This document shows, piece after piece, positions 11,616-29,926 of a stretch of DNA of 64,000 nucleotides. Position 1 is the stretch's first letter. Each line of letters opens with the position of its first letter. The DNA comes from a virus. The notes under the pieces were generated by a model. The model ran no database searches. It was not told the origin of the DNA and was given only the letters and a program-made list of their open reading frames with translations. Made by a program: the position numbers and the translations under genes. The stretch covers positions 47,206 through 111,205 of the IMG/VR virus record IMGVR_UViG_3300032323_003835. One strand, 5' to 3'.

Positions 11616-13291
11616 TTTTTTGAAATTAAATAATTACCTAAAACTAAGAAATCCATTTCGGAATCTAAAAATCTTATTATAGCATCTTTCGGATATAGCG
11701 TTATAGTTTGGTCCTTGAAATTGAAAGATGTGTTAAGTAATATTGGGTATCCTGATAATTCTCCAAAAGTTTTTAATAAACGATAGAATCTTGGATTTTC
11801 GTACGATGTTACAGTCTGAACTCTTGCTGTTCCATCCACGTGTGTTATTGCAGGTAAATCCCACTCTTCTTTAACCTTTACTACCATATTCATATACGGA
11901 ATGGACGATTCTGTTTCAAAAAATTTAGATGCTTCATCGAGGGTGACTGAGGGAGCGAAGGGCCTAAACATCTCCCTTTTCTTTATCACCGAATTTATTC
12001 TATCCTGCATGTGAGGATAGAGTGGTGAAGCTAGAATAGATCTATTTCCAAGTGCTCTGGCTCCAAACTCCATTTTACCCTGAAACCATCCTATAACATT
12101 TCCTTCGTTAAGAAGATTGGAACACTTGAAAATAAGATCTGTTGGATCCATATGATCGTAATTAATTCTATCTCCGAAATTTTTAAAGGATGCTTCTATT
12201 TCTTCTCTATCAAATGAAGGTCCCTGATACGCATCAAACGGTCCCTTTCTCTTCCATTCTTTTACTACGTTTATATAATGGAGACATGCTCCTATAGCGG
12301 ATCCCCCGTCGGACGGAGATAAAGGAACCCAGACGTTTTCATAATTTGATGAGGAGGATATTTTAGAATTTGCTACACCATTATAAGCGCATCCTCCGCC
12401 CAGACACAAATTACTAGTGTTATTAAGCTCGTAGCTAAACTTTATCACCTCAATCAATATTTCTTCATATATCTTCTGAACAGAGGCAGCTATGTGCTTG
12501 TGATGAGCTTCTATGGCATCATTAGAGAATCTTGGGTGGATATTAAGAAGAATAGATAGGTTCTCGTTAAACATTATTCTGTCCGAATAATTCCACGAGA
12601 AATATTTCATATTTACCCTGATTTTACCATTATCATAGGCTATGGTTTTTTTGATGGCATCATAATAGACGGAGGGATCACCATAAGAGGCCAATCCCAT
12701 TACCTTGTATTCTCCTTCGTTGGGCCTAAATCCAAGAAAGGCGGTAAATGCAGAATAAAAAAGCCCGAGGGAGTGCGGGTAATTTATCGAATGTAATTTA
12801 GTTATCCTATTTTTGGTTGCTTTAGAAATAGTAACTGTTTCCTTTTCACCAACGCCATCGACGGTTACTATATTACATTCCGAAAAATTAGACGTGAAGT
12901 ATGCTAAAGACGCGTGGGATAGGTGATGATCTACGAAATAGATTTTTTTAGAAAATCCCAGTTCGTCCAATAAAACGTCTTCCACTGATTTCTTTTTTCC
13001 GCTAAAGATGTAATCTACAATTCTTCTAAAATTTTTGATTGGATTCTTTCTGAAGGTTTCGATTACCCTCTCTCTTTTCTTTATGGGGTTTTCGTACCAA
13101 CAAACTACACTTATATCTTTTGCGGATATTCTATTGGATTTTAGTAGCCATTTAATAGTTTCCTTAGGGAATGAGCTATCACCCTTAACCCCGGTGAATC
13201 TTTCCTCCTCTGCTGCTCCCAGCAAGGTATTATTCCTATATAAACATGCTGCAGAATCGTGGTAAAATGCAGAGATTCCAAGTATATACAT
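11612..13291 (-). CDS. O-carbamoyltransferase (NodU/CmcH/TobZ family)
   Basis: 559 residues, typical family length. N-terminal ASKA-fold motifs: ILGISAFYHDSAACL, then VDHHLSHASLAYFTS with the conserved histidines, then VTVDGVGE. The nucleotide-binding region has CLGGGCAYNGVANSKI and the YrdC-like C-terminus contains FGARALGNRSIL. Family enzymes move a carbamoyl group from carbamoyl phosphate via carbamoyl-adenylate onto a hydroxyl, usually of a sugar. A sugar acceptor fits the nearby FkbM, sulfotransferase and epimerase genes; a modified nucleotide is an alternative. Confidence 0.9.
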   Translation of the reverse strand: MYILGISAFYHDSAACLYRNNTLLGAAEEERFTGVKGDSSFPKETIKWLLKSNRISAKDISVVCWYENPIKKRERVIETFRKNPIKNFRRIVDYIFSGKKKSVEDVLLDELGFSKKIYFVDHHLSHASLAYFTSNFSECNIVTVDGVGEKETVTISKATKNRITKLHSINYPHSLGLFYSAFTAFLGFRPNEGEYKVMGLASYGDPSVYYDAIKKTIAYDNGKIRVNMKYFSWNYSDRIMFNENLSILLNIHPRFSNDAIEAHHKHIAASVQKIYEEILIEVIKFSYELNNTSNLCLGGGCAYNGVANSKISSSSNYENVWVPLSPSDGGSAIGACLHYINVVKEWKRKGPFDAYQGPSFDREEIEASFKNFGDRINYDHMDPTDLIFKCSNLLNEGNVIGWFQGKMEFGARALGNRSILASPLYPHMQDRINSVIKKREMFRPFAPSVTLDEASKFFETESSIPYMNMVVKVKEEWDLPAITHVDGTARVQTVTSYENPRFYRLLKTFGELSGYPILLNTSFNFKDQTITLYPKDAIIRFLDSEMDFLVLGNYLISKK

Positions 13292-14486: not shown

Positions 14487-15407
14487 TTAAACCATATTTT
14501 TAGCTAGCATATCATCTCTGAAAGCAGTTGATTTTGCTAGGGTTTCTTGGAATATAGGCTTACTTAAATCGTTACCTAATCCGGCGTTAACGTGAAAGAC
14601 AGCTTTGAGAGCTGCATCTTTATTCGGAAATTCATTAGGATCATTTGATCCGTACAGGGATTTAACTTTAGGGTTTTTTAAATTCTCTATAAAATAAAGT
14701 ACTGCAACTTCTGCTGCAACATCTAGCTCGTTTAAGGCATCGGGATTGGTAACAAAGTTTATTGACCTTCCAAGTTTTCCATTTTCGTTATAGATCTTTT
14801 GCATTTTTTCATATCCGGCTTTAAAAGTAATTCCATTGAATCCTATTCCCGCATATTTTGATCCATCACCTGGTTGGGTGTTTCCCATTTTTTGAGAAGC
14901 CCCTGTAGGATCATCTGGACCATAAACCCTATCCCAAAATTTAGAAGGATCAGCTTTTAATGTATTAAGCTCAGCGTCAGTTAAAGTGGCGACTCTTTTA
15001 CCAAAGATTTTTCTGATTCTGTCATTACTAGTATTAGTATAAGGAACCTCATTCTGTGGTGCCCAACCGCACTCTTTACCGATAACACCCTGAATGGATG
15101 CTCTCATATTTTTATCGGTAATTCCGTGTCTGTCCATTGCCTTGTTTACTTCCTCTACGCCCTTTTTAACATCCTCCGCGGAAGGAACTTTAGCACCGCT
15201 TCCTTGTAATCTTTCGCCCCATGATGTACCACCACCTTCAGGATCATCCCCTAAGAAATCACCAAATCCTGCTCCTTTGATTATTTCTGCAGCCTTTTTT
15301 AATTGGTCTATCATTGTAGCACCCGACCCAGTAGGATCTTTCATTGGGTCTTCTTTTTTTACTTCCTGCTCATTTATAAAGCCTGAAAATTGTTTTAGGT
15401 ATTTCAT
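14487..15407 (-). CDS. Tagged GH19-type lysozyme
   Basis: 306 residues. N-terminal tag MKYLKQFSGFINE, then a linker containing DPTGSGAT. The catalytic part (about residues 100-300) shows GVIGKECGW (catalytic Glu region), KDPSKFWDRVYG and GDGSKYAGIGFNGITFKAGYEKM, the counterpart of the GDGW+YRGRGxxQLTGxxNY signature of glycoside hydrolase 19 endolysins. It should cleave the peptidoglycan glycan strand. The tag suggests virion packaging rather than a plain lysis enzyme (inference). Confidence 0.75.
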   Translation of the reverse strand: MKYLKQFSGFINEQEVKKEDPMKDPTGSGATMIDQLKKAAEIIKGAGFGDFLGDDPEGGGTSWGERLQGSGAKVPSAEDVKKGVEEVNKAMDRHGITDKNMRASIQGVIGKECGWAPQNEVPYTNTSNDRIRKIFGKRVATLTDAELNTLKADPSKFWDRVYGPDDPTGASQKMGNTQPGDGSKYAGIGFNGITFKAGYEKMQKIYNENGKLGRSINFVTNPDALNELDVAAEVAVLYFIENLKNPKVKSLYGSNDPNEFPNKDAALKAVFHVNAGLGNDLSKPIFQETLAKSTAFRDDMLAKNMV

Positions 15408-20880: not shown

Positions 20881-21711
20881 CTATCTTAACTCGTCGAAGG
20901 TATTTTTTACGTCTGTGGCAGTTTGGATGTCAGTCGGTTTGTTTGCATTAGCAGTTGCCGAAAGTATATTACCAAGAGCCTGCTGCATTAACTTAGAGCT
21001 TGGATCCTCCGGTGCTTTTCCAAACTCTCCTCCAACAGTTTCATCGTCAGGATAAACATCTTGTCCAGTTAATGGTGAAAGATTTGAGGCTTGACCTGTT
21101 AATGCTTTAGATATATTAGTTTCAAATTCCGGAGTTCTACTACTTTTAAAATAGTCGATAAATCCAACGAGGTTAGTACCGTCTATCTTTCTTTTGTTGA
21201 TCCCAACTCTATCTCCTTCACCGCTGAGCTGATCGTTGGTGTTACCCTCCATAGAAGTGAAAGATCTATCCTTCTCGTCAACCGAAACTACAATACCAGT
21301 ATGACCTAGACCTTTCCCTGGACGGGTCATAATAAAGATCTGACCAGGTCTGATTAAGCTTGGATTAGATTTTATTCGATCAACCGGAATTTTAGTATCA
21401 GCAGGAGCTTGGTTCCAGTGATTCAAACATCCTCCTGTTTTAACTACGCTTGTTGTTTTACCCAATCTCTTACAAAGCTCATCGAAGATATAGTAAACAA
21501 AGGCCATGCACCAAGGAAGACCTCCCGAAAGACCCACTGATTGTAAATATTTAGTAACCTCTGGACCCTTATTACTTCCCTTAGGTTGTTCTTTCGCGTC
21601 CTTATGGGATGCAAGAACACCAGCGAAAGTTTCACCTGCCCCGGAAGGGTCGCTAAGTGGAATTTGCTGTGCTTCCTGTACAAACAGGCTAAAATTTTTA
21701 ATTCTTCTCAT
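20881..21711 (-). CDS. Tagged CHAP-domain peptidoglycan hydrolase
   Basis: 276 residues. Tag MRRIKNFSLFVQE, then a linker with DPSGAGET matching the DPTGSGAT linker of the lysozyme at 14487. CHAP/NlpC-like catalytic features: LPWCMAFVYYIFDEL (catalytic Cys), GLGHTGIVVSVDE (catalytic His), SFTSMEGNTND. Likely cleaves peptide cross-bridges. The C-terminal ~80 residues look disordered. A late-type box lies 3 bases from the ATG. Confidence 0.75.
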   Translation of the reverse strand: MRRIKNFSLFVQEAQQIPLSDPSGAGETFAGVLASHKDAKEQPKGSNKGPEVTKYLQSVGLSGGLPWCMAFVYYIFDELCKRLGKTTSVVKTGGCLNHWNQAPADTKIPVDRIKSNPSLIRPGQIFIMTRPGKGLGHTGIVVSVDEKDRSFTSMEGNTNDQLSGEGDRVGINKRKIDGTNLVGFIDYFKSSRTPEFETNISKALTGQASNLSPLTGQDVYPDDETVGGEFGKAPEDPSSKLMQQALGNILSATANANKPTDIQTATDVKNTFDELR

Positions 21712-22393: not shown

Positions 22394-23677
22394 TTAAAAC
22401 TTAGGACAAGACATGCTGCCCCATTTTCTTTTACTTTCCAATCTGTAAAATAACATGTTCCAGTCAATATTGAGTCTAAGCTTAGGTATCCTAAATTTAG
22501 GTTTCTTACCTGCTGTAATAGTCACGAAGAAAGCTTTTTCCTTAACCTCTATTGGTTTTTTAGGATCTACCTTAATTGGTTCTGGTTTAGTTTCTGCTCC
22601 TTTAACCGGTTCTTCCTTTTTAGTGTCATTAAAAACTATTCCAGCTTCTACCGAAACTTTTTGATACTTCTTCAGAGCTTGTTTATTTGCATCGGTTTTA
22701 TCCCATTCTTCACCGGATGTCCCAGTTAAATCCGTTCCAACAGGCTGAGACGCATAAGCAACCGTGGATTTTTTACCTGCATTGGTGCCTTTAGTCGATT
22801 TTTCTATTTTGGTGTCACCGTCAATTAATACCCCAATCTTAGCTAATTCTTCTTTTAAATACTTAATGGTAGATTCTGCTCTAAGATCAGAGAGTTCGGC
22901 AAAAGTATGTTTCTTTTTATCCTCAGGAGAAACTCCGTTTGGAATAGTAGAAGAAGATGTTGTAATCTTCAGAGAATTAAGATATGATTTAGGTTTGCCG
23001 TCCGGCGGGTTTAATTTAGAGATTGCTTCCTTAGAAGGATTTATCACATTTTCAGTTAACCACGTTTTAAATTTCTCCGAAAGTGTCCAACTATTAAACT
23101 CAAAGAAATCTGAAGTGTCAATATCTTGAGGAATTTCTAGTTTAACCTCTGGGTATAATATCGGAGGAGTGTCAGAAGATTTAGGATCTGTTGATTCGCC
23201 AGGAGCTCCAGGGGTTTCGCGATTATTATAAAAATCAGCAGCATATATTTTTACATTCTTACCTAGATCTAATGGTGCTTTTCTATCCACTGGTTCTCCC
23301 TTGTAATCCTTCGGAAGCTTGTCATGAGTTGCATACACAATAAACATGGCATACTTCTCTGGAAATTTTTCTTTAAACCCCTCAAGAGCTGTCTTAGATT
23401 GATCGTCGCCAACAATTTTCAAAACTCTTTCTTCACAATCTGTAAATCCTTCGGTGTTCATCCAGTCTAAAAGGCTCATATCTTTGGTTAGTCCTTTTGC
23501 TAATGGATATCCCTCTGCCTTGTAATTATTATAGGATTTCAATGATGAAAATCCAACTTTACTTGTTCCAGAAGCGTCCTGATCGTTTGCTTTGAATCCC
23601 CACACGTAGTAAGGATCTTCTTGCTCGTTCATTGCACTTTCATCATTCCATGATTTAAATTCTACTAAATACTTCAT
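22394..23677 (-). CDS. Tagged protein with divergent OmpA-like C-terminal region
   Basis: 427 residues. Starts MKYLVEFKSWNDE, related to the shared tag (L-V-E is the only protease-type site). Residues about 190-330 (FFEFNSWTLSEKFKTWL, then ELSDLRAESTIKYLKEELAKIGV) resemble an OmpA/MotB peptidoglycan-binding domain, with the usual R-A-x-x-V-x-x-Y-L helix recognisable. A Lys/Pro-rich linker (KPEPIKVDPKKPIEV) precedes a short conserved tail. Probable virion protein that touches peptidoglycan; moderately sure. Confidence 0.55.
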   Translation of the reverse strand: MKYLVEFKSWNDESAMNEQEDPYYVWGFKANDQDASGTSKVGFSSLKSYNNYKAEGYPLAKGLTKDMSLLDWMNTEGFTDCEERVLKIVGDDQSKTALEGFKEKFPEKYAMFIVYATHDKLPKDYKGEPVDRKAPLDLGKNVKIYAADFYNNRETPGAPGESTDPKSSDTPPILYPEVKLEIPQDIDTSDFFEFNSWTLSEKFKTWLTENVINPSKEAISKLNPPDGKPKSYLNSLKITTSSSTIPNGVSPEDKKKHTFAELSDLRAESTIKYLKEELAKIGVLIDGDTKIEKSTKGTNAGKKSTVAYASQPVGTDLTGTSGEEWDKTDANKQALKKYQKVSVEAGIVFNDTKKEEPVKGAETKPEPIKVDPKKPIEVKEKAFFVTITAGKKPKFRIPKLRLNIDWNMLFYRLESKRKWGSMSCPKF

Positions 23678-24584: not shown

Positions 24585-25715
24585 TTAAAATCCAAGCTCA
24601 CCTAGATCTGCAAGGGTTGAAGCCGCGTCTCCAATTCTCTTGGAAACAGCATCAAATGCCTCCGGATAATTTTTCTTAAGCAGAATCATCGCTTCTGGGG
24701 TAAGATATTTGGCATCAATATTCGATGCTCTATCTAAAATAAACGGACCAAAAAGATTAGGATGCACACTTAAACCCTCCAGCCATCCTTCAAAATTCCA
24801 TTTCTTTATTTCGAAGGTATCCATCTTTTTTGGCCAATCTGGTGCATATTCGAACTTTCCCCCTATTTTTAAAGGTGCCCCAAATAATGAGGTAAGTTTT
24901 GAGCCGATAAAAAATCTTCCGCCAACCCTTAGAGGTGATCCTTCTAATGAATATAGGTTACTTCCTGTGCAAAGAAATTCTCTTCCAACATCCAAAGGTC
25001 CTCCTTTTAGTGAGGTAAGTTTATCATTACCGTATAATCTAAATGATGCTCCTACCTTCTCAGGAGATCCTTCTAATGAGGTAAGTCCTATATCCATGGC
25101 CACAAAATCATGGAGAATCTCACCAAACTTAACTCCTCTAAATCCAAGATTGGTTCCTTGTGCTTCAAAATTTCCTAGAACGTCAATTTTTCCGGTTGTT
25201 TCGTTGATCCTCCATGTTTTCTTTGATGATTTATCCAGCCAATTAACTATGGATGGTGTAAGATTATATTTTTTATAAAGATCACCAAGAGGATCATCAA
25301 TCCCTGTTCTATCCAAAATCTCTTCCCTAATTTTTGGAAGTTCATCCAGATATTTTATCATCTCCGGGTTGTTCTTCATAAGGGTATCTAAATCATCAAT
25401 GGATACCTGGGTAATTCCTTTTTTAATAAATCTAGTAATCACATACCCTAACATTTTGGGCATTGGATTTTCCAATTGATATTGATAAACATAACCTTGA
25501 CTAGATGTTCTCACATATCCAGCTGAAGTAATTCTAAGTTTTACCCCGGAGTATGGACTATGTATTGTAAGGGTTCCGTTTTTATTGATGTCATAAATTT
25601 CAAAACCCATTAGCCTTAGAAATTTCCATTCGGGAAGATCTTGCCATGCACCAGCCCAGTCCTCTACTGTAACAATTTTAGATTCAAATATTTTAAAATT
25701 CTTTAGATGCTTCAT
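24585..25715 (-). CDS. Tagged leucine-rich-repeat protein, array member 3
   Basis: 376 residues from the ATG at 25715 (MKHLKNFKIFESK); an in-frame start 27 bases upstream is less likely because the tag begins at 25715. After the I-F-E tag comes a ~190-residue unique domain, the WRINETTGKIDVLGNF cap, only about four repeats (LTSLEGSPEKVGASF, LTSLKGGPLDVGREF and so on), then the conserved tail ending ADLGELGF. Fewer repeats than its neighbours, consistent with expansion and contraction of the array. Confidence 0.8.
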   Translation of the reverse strand: MKHLKNFKIFESKIVTVEDWAGAWQDLPEWKFLRLMGFEIYDINKNGTLTIHSPYSGVKLRITSAGYVRTSSQGYVYQYQLENPMPKMLGYVITRFIKKGITQVSIDDLDTLMKNNPEMIKYLDELPKIREEILDRTGIDDPLGDLYKKYNLTPSIVNWLDKSSKKTWRINETTGKIDVLGNFEAQGTNLGFRGVKFGEILHDFVAMDIGLTSLEGSPEKVGASFRLYGNDKLTSLKGGPLDVGREFLCTGSNLYSLEGSPLRVGGRFFIGSKLTSLFGAPLKIGGKFEYAPDWPKKMDTFEIKKWNFEGWLEGLSVHPNLFGPFILDRASNIDAKYLTPEAMILLKKNYPEAFDAVSKRIGDAASTLADLGELGF

Positions 25716-25719
25716 ACCT

Positions 25720-26142
25720 TTATCTTTTTCCTTCGAGAACAACCTTTAGTCCATTGTTTCTGTCGATGTACATCCATTCACATGAAATGAGACCAAATTG
25801 GTCAAAATGATCTAGCACCTCGTCAGCTGAAAATTGTGAACATGAATAAATGTCAAATTGGAAGAAAGCAGGATCTTTGGCATCCCAAACGTGGATGGCT
25901 GCATGTGAAGTAGCTAATGTAACAGTACCTGTGATACCTTCGTTACCTGGTTCATTCACGTAAACCGAGGTTGGTCCGGCAACAACTACCATTCTAACTC
26001 TTTCGACTAGATCTTTTAGCCACTGGTTTAAAACCTCTTCCTCTCTGGGAGGATTTTGAATATGACCTCTAACTAGGAGGTGGAGGTGATTGGGAACGAA
26101 CCCCGCTAATGTTTCTTTTTCTGTATGTGTATTCTCTTGCAT
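25720..26142 (-). CDS. AdoMet-decarboxylase-like (SpeD family) protein
   Basis: 140 residues, SpeD-like size. VTLATSHAAIHVWDAKDPAFFQFDIYSCSQFSADEVLDHF parallels the SpeD core, in which the Ser of ESH becomes the pyruvoyl cofactor; here the residue before Ser-His is Thr, not Glu. An NHLHLLVRGHI segment precedes it. If active it makes decarboxylated AdoMet for polyamines, which can neutralise packaged DNA. It sits inside the repeat-protein array behind its own late-type box. Confidence 0.65.
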   Translation of the reverse strand: MQENTHTEKETLAGFVPNHLHLLVRGHIQNPPREEEVLNQWLKDLVERVRMVVVAGPTSVYVNEPGNEGITGTVTLATSHAAIHVWDAKDPAFFQFDIYSCSQFSADEVLDHFDQFGLISCEWMYIDRNNGLKVVLEGKR

Positions 26143-26147
26143 GGATC

Positions 26148-26157
26148 TATATATTTA
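26148..26157 (-). promoter_or_regulatory. Late-type promoter box overlapping a stop codon
   Basis: AAATATATAG on the minus strand. It shares its first bases with the TAA stop of the upstream repeat gene and ends 5 bases before the ATG at 26142. Confidence 0.6.
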
Positions 26158-27387
26158 AAATCCTAACTCTCCTAAATCTGCAAGAGTTGAAGCACCGTCT
26201 CCAATTTTCTTGGAAACAATATTGAATCCCTCCGGAGAATTTTTTTTAAGCATAATCATTATTTCTGGAGTAATAAATGGTCTAAGATCTTTGACATCTA
26301 TCTCTTGTACCCTATCTAAAAGGAATTCGCTAAAAAGCCTTGGACTTATTCTGAAACTATCAATCCATCCCTTTAAATTCCATTTAATTCTATTTATGTG
26401 ATTATCATAACCAAAAAGTCCACCAATCTTCAGAGGTGCTCCCTCCATGGAGTCAAATGGATTTCCATGACAAGCAAAATTACCTTCAACCTCCAGCGGT
26501 GCTCCTTCTAGGGAGGTAAGTAGATTATTACTACAATGAAAACCCCCACCTATCTTCTGCGGAGATCCTTTTAGAGAAACGAGTTTATTGTTATAGCAAT
26601 TAAAATCACCACCAACACTCTGTGGTGCTCCTTCTAGAGACGTAAGTTTATTTCCCGAACAATCAAATTTCCCACCAACCTCTGTTGGTGATCCCGCTAA
26701 AGAGGTAATTTTATTGTTATGGCAATCAAAATCCCAACCTACCTCTTGAGGTGCTCCCGTCAGGGAAGTAAGTTGATTTCCCCCACAATCAAAATGCCTT
26801 CCTATCCTCCGAGGTGCTCCTACTAGGGATGTAAGACGATTACGAGAACAATCAAAAAACCCTTCAACCTCCAGCGGTGCTCCCTCTAGAGAGGTAAGTT
26901 CATTATCAGAACAATAGAAAGTACCCCCGACCTCTTGCGGTGATCCTTTTAGAGAAGCGAGTTTATTGTTATAGCAATTAAAATCACCACCAACACTCTG
27001 TGGTGCTCCCTCTAGAGAAATTAGTTTATTACTGTAACAATGAAAGTTCCCACCAACCTTCCGCGGTGCTCCGTTTAACGAAGTAAGTTTATTATCGTTA
27101 CAGACAAAATTCCCTCCTACCTCTTGGGGTGCTCCTTTTAGAGAGGTAAGATTGTTTACGATATCAAAAACAATAAAATCACCAGTCACCACTCCAAAGG
27201 AAACAGGCAGCACTTTTTTCTTACTATCCGAGATCATAAAGTCACCATCAACATCAATTAGTCCAGTTTGCGGATTTAAAGACCATGTACCTGTACCCGA
27301 ATGGGTTCCCATATTCAGAAAAGACCTCTGTGACGGGGTTAAGTCGGAAGCAGATTCAAACAAGGAAAATTTCTTTAGATATTTCAT
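26155..27387 (-). CDS. Tagged leucine-rich-repeat protein, array member 2
   Basis: 410 residues. Tag MKYLKKFSLFESA, cap WSLNPQTGLIDVDGDFMI, then about 11-12 repeats of exactly 21 residues (consensus GGxFxCxxNxLTSLxGAPxxV) from about residue 78 to 322, then the conserved tail LKKNSPEGFNIVSKKIGDGAS and ADLGELGF. Leucine-rich solenoids mediate protein binding. The tag and late-type promoter suggest a virion-internal protein. The repeated Cys and Asn positions form the usual ladder. Confidence 0.85.
   Translation of the reverse strand: MKYLKKFSLFESASDLTPSQRSFLNMGTHSGTGTWSLNPQTGLIDVDGDFMISDSKKKVLPVSFGVVTGDFIVFDIVNNLTSLKGAPQEVGGNFVCNDNKLTSLNGAPRKVGGNFHCYSNKLISLEGAPQSVGGDFNCYNNKLASLKGSPQEVGGTFYCSDNELTSLEGAPLEVEGFFDCSRNRLTSLVGAPRRIGRHFDCGGNQLTSLTGAPQEVGWDFDCHNNKITSLAGSPTEVGGKFDCSGNKLTSLEGAPQSVGGDFNCYNNKLVSLKGSPQKIGGGFHCSNNLLTSLEGAPLEVEGNFACHGNPFDSMEGAPLKIGGLFGYDNHINRIKWNLKGWIDSFRISPRLFSEFLLDRVQEIDVKDLRPFITPEIMIMLKKNSPEGFNIVSKKIGDGASTLADLGELGF
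26421..27180 (-). repeat. 63-bp coding tandem repeats
   Basis: About twelve 63-bp units within the repeat gene. Two units (near 26560 and 26940) are almost identical over the stretch encoding GGDFNCYNNK, indicating recent internal duplication. Confidence 0.75.
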
Positions 27388-27390
27388 TCC

Positions 27391-27401
27391 TTTATATATT
27401 T
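27391..27401 (-). promoter_or_regulatory. Late-type promoter box
   Basis: AAATATATAAA on the minus strand, 3 bases before the ATG at 27387. Confidence 0.65.
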
Positions 27402-27414
27402 AAAATCCTAACTC
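27399..27414 (-). pseudogene. Relic of a repeat-gene 3' end
   Basis: Reads GAG TTA GGA TTT TAA, that is E-L-G-F-stop, the exact end of the array members, directly before the late box. No gene is attached upstream, so an array member has been deleted or replaced here. Confidence 0.6.
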
Positions 27415-27542
27415 ACAACCGGACAAAGTTATAATATTTATATTTTTATCAAATCGGAAAAATTATCGGATCTATCATTTCGAATATGCTTGTAATAAGA
27501 GATAGAAAAAGATTCGGTCCTTAATTTATTCCATGTAGTAGC

Positions 27543-27552
27543 GAATATATAT
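27543..27552 (+). promoter_or_regulatory. Late-type promoter box
   Basis: GAATATATAT on the plus strand, 19 bases before the ATG at 27572. Confidence 0.5.
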
Positions 27553-27571
27553 TATAGTCAATAAAATAAAA

Positions 27572-28084
27572 ATGATGAGGTATATTAAAAGCTACGACGA
27601 AAAATCAAATATAAACGAATCTGAAGAATATCCCGGATTGTACAAGGTATCAATAGATTTAATGCTCGACAGTGATTATGTAGATCCTATAATATATTTG
27701 CAGGAAATAATTGATCAGTTCCATGTTCAAATTATAAATATGCATCCCATAGGTCAAGGAGGGGGTAGCACAGAAGTAGTTTTTAGAGGGAAAGCTACTG
27801 ACATTATGAGACTATTAAAATATCAAGAGGATCGTGCAAATTTTACCGGAGAAGAAACCAAGGATTTTGTAACAATTACAAATTTACCAAATCCTGCCGA
27901 GGATGATGGGTGGGAATATTTCGAAGAATTTGCAGTACCAGATTCCCCTATCCCTTTCAGTGTTCAATCTCTTCCTAGATTTTCTACAGACAAGAATAGA
28001 AGATATATCAATTTGGACGGAACAGCAATTGATGCATCAGGAAGAGAACGACTCAAAGATATGTTCTCAACTAAGAACAATTAA
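27572..28084 (+). CDS. Tagged protein on the opposite strand within the array
   Basis: 170 residues (two adjacent ATGs at 27572 and 27575). MRYIKSYDEKSNINE fits the tag type that ends in I-N-E. The body (LYKVSIDLMLDSDYVDPIIYLQEIIDQFHVQIINMHPIGQGGGSTEVVFRG) suggests a small alpha/beta domain of unknown function. Its position, flanked by a repeat-gene relic, suggests it was inserted into the array. Confidence 0.65.
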   Translation: MMRYIKSYDEKSNINESEEYPGLYKVSIDLMLDSDYVDPIIYLQEIIDQFHVQIINMHPIGQGGGSTEVVFRGKATDIMRLLKYQEDRANFTGEETKDFVTITNLPNPAEDDGWEYFEEFAVPDSPIPFSVQSLPRFSTDKNRRYINLDGTAIDASGRERLKDMFSTKNN

Positions 28085-28103
28085 GAAGATTATCACTCGA
28101 AAT

Positions 28104-29258
28104 TTAAAATCCTAGATCACCTAGGTCTGCAGCGGTGGTAGCTCCTTCCCCAAATCTCTTAGCCAGAATCTTAAAGGTCTCTGGTAATTTTTTTCTGATG
28201 ATATTAAGGTCTTCCGGAGAGAGATCTCTAGGATCTATTTTTTCCGCCATGTTTGCAATAAAAGGTAAAAAAAGATCTGGGTCTTGCTCCATTCCCTGTA
28301 GCCAACCTTTTATATTCCATTTAATATCCGAAAAACGAGGGTGATATGAAAAATTACCTCCGATTCTCATCGGTGCACCCTCTAGAGAGGTAAGCGGATT
28401 GTATACACAGAGAAAATTTCTTCCGACCTCGATCGGCGCTCCTTCTAGAGAAGTGAGCTCGTTACTTTCACAACTAAAATTATCACTAACACCCTGTGGT
28501 GATCCTATTAAAGAGGTAAGATTATTTCTATCACAACGAAAATAAGGTCTAATTCCCTGTGGTGCTCCTACTAGGGATGTAAGACGATTACTACTACAAT
28601 CAAAACCACCCCCGATCTTAGAAGGTATTCCCTCCAGAGAGGTAAGCTCGTTGTTGCCACAATCGAAACCCCCTCCTACATCCTGTGGTGCTCCCTCTAA
28701 GGAGGTAAGTTGATTAGTATAACATATAAAATCGCCACCAACACTCGGGGGTGCTCCTGCTAGAGACGTAAGTTTATTTCCCGAACAATCAAATACCCCA
28801 CCAACCTCTGTTGGGGATCCCGCTAAAGAGGTAATTTTATTTTCCCGACATCTAAAATTCCCTCCTACATTCTGAGGTGCTCCTGTCAGAGAAGTAAGTT
28901 CATTTCCCCCACAATCAAAATTCCCTCCTATCCTCCGAGGTGCTCCCTCTAGAGAGGTAAGACGGATAACCCTACAAATAAAATTTCCTCCAACCTCTTG
29001 GGGAGCTCCTTTTAGGGAGGTGAAACTGTTTTTATATTGTTTAAAAGCAAAATTTCCCGACACAACACCAAATGAAACTGGCAGTAATGTTCTGGTAGTT
29101 TCACCAACACTAAAATCTCCATCAACGTCAATCAGACCGGTTTGAGAATTTAATGACCAGGTTCCACCACTTTGGGTTCCTTTGTTTAGGAAAGCTATCT
29201 GAGGGACGGATAGTTTGAAAGAGGATTCAAATAAGGAAAATTTCTTTAGATATTTCAC
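28104..29258 (-). CDS. Tagged leucine-rich-repeat protein, array member 1
   Basis: 384 residues, GTG start at 29258. Tag MKYLKKFSLFESS is nearly identical to that of 26155..27387, as is the cap WSLNSQTGLIDVDGDF. About ten 21-residue repeats follow (roughly residues 80-300), then a tail ending ADLGDLGF. A diverged tandem duplicate of member 2, with repeat order and surface residues changed. Confidence 0.85.
   Translation of the reverse strand: MKYLKKFSLFESSFKLSVPQIAFLNKGTQSGGTWSLNSQTGLIDVDGDFSVGETTRTLLPVSFGVVSGNFAFKQYKNSFTSLKGAPQEVGGNFICRVIRLTSLEGAPRRIGGNFDCGGNELTSLTGAPQNVGGNFRCRENKITSLAGSPTEVGGVFDCSGNKLTSLAGAPPSVGGDFICYTNQLTSLEGAPQDVGGGFDCGNNELTSLEGIPSKIGGGFDCSSNRLTSLVGAPQGIRPYFRCDRNNLTSLIGSPQGVSDNFSCESNELTSLEGAPIEVGRNFLCVYNPLTSLEGAPMRIGGNFSYHPRFSDIKWNIKGWLQGMEQDPDLFLPFIANMAEKIDPRDLSPEDLNIIRKKLPETFKILAKRFGEGATTAADLGDLGF
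28358..28991 (-). repeat. 63-bp coding tandem repeats
   Basis: About ten 63-bp units, each encoding GGxFxCxxNxLTSLxGAPxxV with variable x positions. Confidence 0.75.
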
Positions 29259-29262
29259 CCTG

Positions 29263-29272
29263 TATATATTTA
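29263..29272 (-). promoter_or_regulatory. Late-type promoter box overlapping a stop codon
   Basis: TAAATATATA on the minus strand: the TAA of the gene ending at 29270 starts the box, and GTG at 29258 follows after 4 bases. Confidence 0.6.
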
Positions 29273-29926
29273 GAATCCTAACTCGCCTAGGTCTGCAATT
29301 GTGTTAGCGCCTGGGTTGGCACTCAGGGTCTGCCAGATGGCGGGAAATCTTTGACGCAGGACTCTTGCAACTTCTGGTTTAACTTTCGCGGATAGAATCC
29401 CCTTCAGATGTGTGATAAGAAATTTAAGATCCTCTATGTCATAGGCATGTCCCTCAAAGAGCGAGATGTTAGAATTAATAAGCTCTACGTGTTCTTTCCT
29501 AATGAGGGTATCAGGGAAGATCTCCGCGTCACAAATGAGAAGGACAAGATCCGTCCAAAGGGATCTTAAACAATCTTCTGCTGTGGGAAAGTCCCCTCCA
29601 TGAAAATATACATTACCATATCCACTAACAGGCCTATATCCCCAGGACCACATAATATCTACATCGGAGGTTGTTAAATTAGGACCAAAATTGGCATTTT
29701 TCTTTATATAATTGGTTTCAACAGTAGGAAATACCGTAGTACCACCACGTTTAACGTACGAAAATCTAGCCCAGGTCTTAAACTTTTCCGAAGCCATGCC
29801 TGTAGTTTTATTAATAGCAAGCAGATCTCTGCCCGCCTGGGTTTCTTCTAGAGCATACTTAAGTTCACTCTCAAGATCTTGTCTTGTCTTATTTTCGTAG
29901 AGTGTATAGGTCTGGAGGTGTTTCAT
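29270..29926 (-). CDS. Tagged protein sharing the array C-terminus
   Basis: 218 residues. Tag MKHLQTYTLYENK and the same end, ADLGELGF, but with no leucine-rich repeats between them. The middle (WARFSYVKRGGTTVFPTVETNYIKKN, MWSWGYRPVSGYGNVYFHGGDFPTAEDCLRSLW) is a different, unrecognised domain. So tag and tail form a constant frame around a variable payload. Confidence 0.75.
   Translation of the reverse strand: MKHLQTYTLYENKTRQDLESELKYALEETQAGRDLLAINKTTGMASEKFKTWARFSYVKRGGTTVFPTVETNYIKKNANFGPNLTTSDVDIMWSWGYRPVSGYGNVYFHGGDFPTAEDCLRSLWTDLVLLICDAEIFPDTLIRKEHVELINSNISLFEGHAYDIEDLKFLITHLKGILSAKVKPEVARVLRQRFPAIWQTLSANPGANTIADLGELGF

Follow-up and report, generated by a model that had tools for sequence, protein, structure and literature searches.

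Why do neighbouring genes with unrelated middle parts begin and end alike? The question is raised by a locus in IMG/VR virus record IMGVR_UViG_3300032323_003835, from which we analyzed a window of 64,000 nucleotides (nt), corresponding to bases 47206-111205 of the 111,205-base record. Within positions 24585-29926 the minus strand carries, in the 5' to 3' order, the open reading frames (ORFs) A, B, C, S-adenosylmethionine (SAM) decarboxylase and D. The products of A, B, C and D share a short N-terminal tag (consensus MK-x-[LI]-x-x-[FY]-x-[LI]-[FY]-E-[SANT]; MKHLQTYTLYEN in A, MKYLKKFSLFES in both B and C, MKHLKNFKIFES in D), and all four end with xADLG[ED]LGF. The initial annotation, made from the sequence alone, had described four such genes, and all four ORFs were found with both ends present; its counts of leucine-rich repeats (LRRs) between the ends were right for A (0) and D (4), while its '10' and '11-12' had to be corrected to 11 in B and 12 in C. 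We conclude that the locus is probably a birth-and-death cassette array of proteins packaged in the head and injected, in a large phage of the T4 superfamily with a probable host among Bacteroidota.

Gene Joints and Array Variation

A promoter-like TAAATATATA box is common to the gene joints and, as in PeSL-type (promoter/stem-loop) cassettes, would act as homology for exchange. According to the initial annotation, the stop codon of one gene forms part of the late box of the next. This holds for the A-B and C-SAM decarboxylase junctions. It does not hold for C, where the TAA of the box comes from the relic of another gene, or for D, which has the tag and no box. The relic is 77% identical over 78 nt (E 5e-14) to positions 11780-11857 of the related record L006, the 3' end of a peptidase gene, and 22 nt of it are identical to the C-SAM decarboxylase junction. 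By this comparison, an array gene has been lost upstream of C, leaving its tail and box in front of C.

Four records with common flanking genes were compared: the window, L005, L006 and L012. In L005 and L012 the array is close to a contig end, so that its upstream part may be incomplete. The gene orders are A-B-(E, relic)-C-SAM-D in the window, X-A-A2-B-78aa-Pep-SAM in L006, Y-A-78aa-SAM-D in L005, and X-Z-Y-SAM in L012. The SAM decarboxylase, 87-98% conserved in L005, L006 and L012, is the constant landmark of the array across the four relatives. Orthologues of A occur in L005 and L006 (78-80%), the latter also having the paralogue A2, and an orthologue of B occurs in L006 (79%). The differences between relatives begin and end at the tail or the box. 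L005 and L006, 92-96% identical in their collinear parts, differ by the A2+B block, absent from L005, and this two-gene indel lies between two tails; the same A is joined to X in L006 and to Y in L005, X|A and Y|A having a common joint. They differ also by D and by Pep, the Pep insert of L006 being flanked by ATATATAGAA box repeats. An array invariant in all relatives is thus refuted, and the variation in content, bounded by the tail/box unit, is as the initial annotation had expected. At the DNA level, the tails of the unrelated neighbours A2 and B in L006 are 97.6% identical over 42 nt, those of X and Z in L012 are 100% identical over 32 nt, and those of L006 X and L005 Y are 94.9% identical over 39 nt.

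Could ordinary tandem duplication and decay have produced this picture, the tail being kept for protein function and the likeness of tail DNA reflecting recent common descent, with no special joint? B and C are evidently paralogous (55% amino acid identity), tail codons vary, and T4 recombines at short microhomologies, so that a dedicated joint is unneeded (PMC9391042). Against this stand the neighbours with unrelated payloads and 97-100% identical tail DNA (A2/B and X/Z), as well as the L005/L006 indels that begin and end at tails and boxes; we consider duplication and decay alone a rather unlikely explanation.

The peptidase gene of L006 (11240-11821) encodes an HExxH motif; the tail that follows it is in another frame, shifted by one base in a run of A. 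This offset could be due to mutation or sequencing error, and the gene probably belonged to the array; hence the tail before the SAM decarboxylase in L006 is not an orphan. Other tagged HExxH proteins, possible metallopeptidase cargo, are encoded in L043 (1500-1985) and L049 (2-805).

A scan anchored on the SAM decarboxylase (78 loci) found the array adjoining it only in the three known relatives, and among 37 further records there was one weak match, a Y-like gene whose tail ends differently (L060, one step out). B as a single-protein query returned no viral-contig relatives even though L006 encodes one, exact-peptide seeding being too strict for LRRs. No match to A was found in INPHARED; the LRR matches in that database (a Vibrio phage and a 735-kb phage) were rejected as LRR relatives only, the stretches examined having no tag and tail.

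N-terminal Tag

The tags fit the capsid-targeting sequences of T4, with a hydrophobic residue 4, an aromatic residue 7, and [LI]xE followed by S, A or N. In T4, the first 10 residues are enough for packaging, residues 4 and 7 acting in targeting and residues 8 and 10 in processing, and gp21 cleaves after L/I-x-E (PMC9026906); sequence comparison gave MKTYQEFIAEA as the N-terminus of both internal proteins (IPs) IPII and IPIII. In tail proteins whose starts are intact, residue 4 is hydrophobic, residue 7 is F or Y, and [LI]xE stands just beyond; [LIVFM]xE occurs within the first 20 residues of 23/24 of them, compared with 22/123 other ORFs (Fisher test, 2e-13). In L043, one array member (MKRLLTYQLFKNRF) carries K in place of E at the cut motif.

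A T4-type prohead protease (PF03420, Peptidase_S77) is encoded in three distant relatives (G008, G009 and G010). In G008 and G010 the gene next after it is a gp23-type capsid gene, and nearby head-cluster proteins bear similar leaders. As the capsid gene of G008 is related to those of Lak, Tenacibaculum and Flavobacterium phages, the host is probably a member of Bacteroidota. Both the tag and the protease speak for head cargo, and the likeness to T4 suggests injection; the proposal of injection in the initial annotation has support by analogy only, through the capsid-targeting resemblance and the T4-type protease of these more distant phages.

The tag could also be read as a cassette of late promoter and translation start (GATATATAA box plus first codons) carried by ordinary late cytoplasmic proteins. 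Box and tag do co-occur strongly, TATATA being present 8-40 bases upstream of 16/20 tagged genes and of 10/107 others (2e-10), and the GATATATAA-like box may indeed be a late-type promoter; moreover, lysis-type enzymes are found among the tagged proteins. Nevertheless, divergent phages preserve the tag at the protein level at both T4 targeting positions, the tag ends in the T4 protease motif, D keeps it without a box, and proteins of the head cluster near the capsid gene bear similar leaders, which makes this reading improbable.

In L044 (8800-10764) and L046 (405-2495) the prohead protease lies inside an ORF of 655-697 amino acids (aa), whose counterpart in Tenacibaculum phage PTm1 is annotated as 'prohead core scaffolding protein and protease'. 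In the window, CHAP and endolysin-type proteins (20881-21711 and 14487-15407) bear the same tag; cell-wall enzymes might then be packaged in the head as well. A longer tag, MKxIKxFxEFINE|S/A, nearer still to the T4 leader, occurs together with a related SAM decarboxylase in several contigs (L061-L074).

C-terminal Module

The constant end is a helical module of about 35-60 residues, of which the tail is the terminus; it comprises two short helices flanking a conserved P and then a helix ending in ADLGxLGF, the helices being seen in the model of C. A search at the DNA level for the final eight residues and the stop codon matched 13 stretches among 2.9 million viral contigs. Twelve of the 13 lie on tagged proteins, save where the locus or contig ends before the gene start, and one is an antisense-like chance match. 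In 257 Gb of cellular genomes there were four matches in unrelated phyla, about four being expected by chance, and none yields a listed ORF with the tail. The profile of the module matches 11/11 records in the tail set, reaching as far as a phage of 434 kb; therefore tag and tail go together as protein features.

The tail is encoded by differing synonymous codons, and the motif is kept in distant phages lacking the DNA junction. These two facts rule out a reading of the tail as a DNA signal alone; judging from them, the tail is mainly a protein feature. The joining unit of tail, promoter and tag proposed in the initial annotation would hold as a local property of this clade, and not as the reason why the tail exists.

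The tail might be a second propeptide removed by the protease and not a docking module. ADLGE would fit L-x-E, and T4 Alt is processed at both ends (PMC9026906); yet Asp replaces Glu in 16/31 tail sequences, and Asp at the cut site blocks T4 processing (PMC9026906). The occurrence of either residue at this position argues against cleavage there, and we find the propeptide explanation quite improbable.

A second type of module (class II), GIKDxxxIGRKLKSGLM, ends tagged genes of G010 and G005, the latter having about nine tagged LRR or tail genes inside 20 kb. D, which ends in class I, contains an internal class II module, recognized by the class II tail profile with an independent E-value of 9.5e-9 (D itself being outside the profile), and its N-terminal domain is found also on a class II protein of G005. 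For these reasons D looks like a class II gene fused to an LRR gene, as the sequences suggest.

A single tail gene of ~286 aa keeps the same neighbours (DNA polymerase, ATPase, HNH, Dps-like) in several phages (L016, L017, L018, L009 and L014), and may represent the ancestral core protein with this tail.

Payloads and Selection

The AlphaFold2 model of C (predicted local distance difference test score, pLDDT, 88.7) shows an LRR solenoid and a six-helix C-terminus, with residues 1-13 disordered; the model of A was unusable (pLDDT 37). By fold, C comes nearest to short LRR proteins of bacteria and to viral LRR proteins. Family scans revealed no catalytic domain of LRR E3 ligases, the partial matches spanning the LRR stretch only. 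LRR blocks within B and C are 78-79% identical over 370-390 nt with a shifted register, a likely sign of internal exchange.

Array genes evolve faster than their neighbours, without positive selection on average: the ratio of nonsynonymous to synonymous substitution rates (dN/dS) was 0.23-0.38 for array genes and 0.02-0.18 for flanking genes. The variability of exposed LRR positions is no more than any LRR shows, and positive selection on LRR surfaces, considered as a candidate, found no support in dN/dS. Of the 'diversifying set of injected recognition proteins' in the initial annotation, the LRR fold was borne out, the recognition role is putative, the variability being ordinary for LRRs, and diversification found no support, dN/dS being well below 1.

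Many LRR proteins are extracellular binders, and internalin-type LRRs are among the sequence and fold matches; still, we regard it as very doubtful that the LRR proteins are virion surface or adhesion proteins binding receptors or glycans and are not injected, as leader and tail are the same as on non-LRR payloads, the leader is common to zincin-like proteins, and family scans give no link to tail fibres.

Proposed Function and Mechanism

In the cassette array that we propose, the leader would bring each protein into the prohead, where a gp21-type protease probably cuts after [LI]xE. The middle part would be a payload open to exchange (an LRR solenoid, a zincin-like peptidase, or other), and the small helical C-terminal module would stay on the mature protein, most likely docking the cargo on a common partner, located in the head or along the exit path. 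Injected together with the DNA, the cargo would be at work early within the host, most likely countering defence or taking over host proteins, LRR payloads presumably binding host proteins; the precedent of T4 IPs points to an early anti-defence role. Since tail, stop codon, TAAATATATA box and tag lie back to back, neighbouring genes would have direct repeats of about 30-40 nt. Recombination at these repeats could delete, insert and re-join whole genes in frame with a promoter, so that each relative carries a different gene set.

Several points weigh against this interpretation. First, a PF03420 search of the phage's own record (G000, a 111-kb fragment) found no prohead protease. Second, endolysin-like, CHAP, ATPase and HNH-like proteins are also tagged, and the tag may mark more than injected cargo. 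Third, the tails differ in synonymous codons, as noted above, and a permutation test of within-genome tail similarity gave a modest result (p 0.025). Fourth, dN/dS was <0.45 in every region tested, with no positive selection indicated. Finally, the array phages are uncultured and known here from metagenomic contigs alone, and we know of no anti-defence target of array proteins.

More speculatively, and with considerable doubt, the locus could belong to a two-ended cargo system, in which a prohead leader is combined with C-terminal docking modules of two or more interchangeable classes (ADLGxLGF and GIKDxxxIGRKLKSGLM), the tail-stop-promoter-tag DNA serves as a reusable joint, and the injected LRR binders form a renewable repertoire comparable to a small receptor repertoire.

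If the cassette-array interpretation is true, tag and tail provide a sequence signature for injected cargo in uncultured Bacteroidota phages, in which early takeover and counter-defence are little known. The idea of T4 IPs would be extended by a C-terminal module and by LRR binders as cargo, the role of C-terminal signals in head cargo would become testable, and the array would be a readable natural record of phages swapping injected proteins.

Comparison with Known Systems

T4 IPI, IPII and IPIII resemble the array proteins in the short leader (residue 4/7 pattern, L/I-x-E) and in unrelated mature parts. They are injected and specifically block type IV restriction enzymes, and the content of their loci, like that of the array, varies between close relatives (PMC12373910). 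Unlike the array proteins, T4 IPs are small, with dissimilar C-termini and no LRR; in the array the payloads are larger, and the leader is not the sole common part, the C-terminal module being shared too.

PeSL cassettes reportedly mediate gene shuffling through promoters (cited in PMC4503421). As in the array, intergenic promoter sequence reportedly provides the homology for gene exchange there and in the T-even IP locus (PMC4503421, PMC12373910). Judging by the descriptions in these later papers, the array is set apart by a joint that also takes in the coding tail and stop codon, and by a box that is presumably late-type. T4 is well known to recombine at short repeats (PMC9391042). Judged by later papers and general knowledge, the array appears unusual in its second constant end and in a joint made up of tail, stop, box and tag together. 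Arbiol in 2010, Comeau in 2014 and Repoila in 1994 reportedly dealt with PeSL promoter/stem-loop shuffling and polymorphism of the T-even IP locus.

T4 Alt ADP-ribosyltransferase and polyvalent proteins are packaged in the head and injected, Alt being processed at both ends (PMC5512222), and the array proteins are probably packaged and injected likewise. No ADP-ribosyltransferase or other polyvalent domain was found in them; single small payloads are present instead. In SPN3US and phiKZ, many injected head proteins are cleaved behind a short motif whose last residue is E; unlike the array proteins they mostly have long propeptides, and the accessible part of the source describes no common tails or swap arrays (PMC5694885). 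Short bacterial LRR proteins of the YopM, IpaH, SspH and InlJ types have the LRR fold and similar short repeats, a likeness of fold only; the array LRR proteins differ from them in having a phage leader and tail, and no ligase or secretion domain was found.

Locus Features

Coordinates are given in Table 1. The row of array genes is broken by two non-members, the SAM decarboxylase and the tagged gene E, which lies on the opposite strand beside the relic; family scans of E gave no match.

Table 1. Features of the array locus (window coordinates).
Feature	Position	Strand	Description
Gene A	29270..29926	-	218 aa; tag, non-LRR payload of unassigned fold, class I C-terminal module
Gene B	28104..29258	-	384 aa, GTG start; tag, 11 LRRs, class I module
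Gene C	26155..27387	-	410 aa; tag, 12 LRRs, class I module
Gene D	24585..25715	-	376 aa; tag, N-terminal domain, internal class II module, 4 LRRs, class I module
SAM decarboxylase	25720..26142	-	untagged; between C and D; PF02675 E 1.1e-10, phrog_3125 E 1.4e-11
Gene E	27572..28084	+	170 aa; tagged (MMRYIKSYDEKSNINES), no tail; interrupts array between B and C
Tag of A	29894..29926	-	capsid-targeting-like, predicted cut after LYE
Tag of B	29226..29258	-	predicted cut after LFE
Tag of C	27355..27387	-	predicted cut after LFE; disordered in model
Tag of D	25683..25715	-	predicted cut after IFE
TAAATATATA box of B	29263..29272	-	TAA = stop codon of A
TAAATATATA box of SAM decarboxylase	26148..26157	-	TAA = stop codon of C
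Relic	27393..27470	-	78-nt 3' end of lost metallopeptidase-type array gene; tail remnant ELGF* and box; at expected promoter site of C
Tail ADLGELGF* of A	29270..29296	-	
Tail ADLGDLGF* of B	28104..28130	-	
Tail ADLGELGF* of C	26155..26181	-	
Tail ADLGELGF* of D	24585..24611	-	
Internal class II module in D	25293..25406	-	residues 104-141

Further along the window, a tagged gene of 427 aa (22394-23677) is near identical to its counterpart in L006, with a synonymous divergence (dS) of 0.07 compared with 0.6-1.5 in most neighbours, which suggests a recent exchange between lineages.

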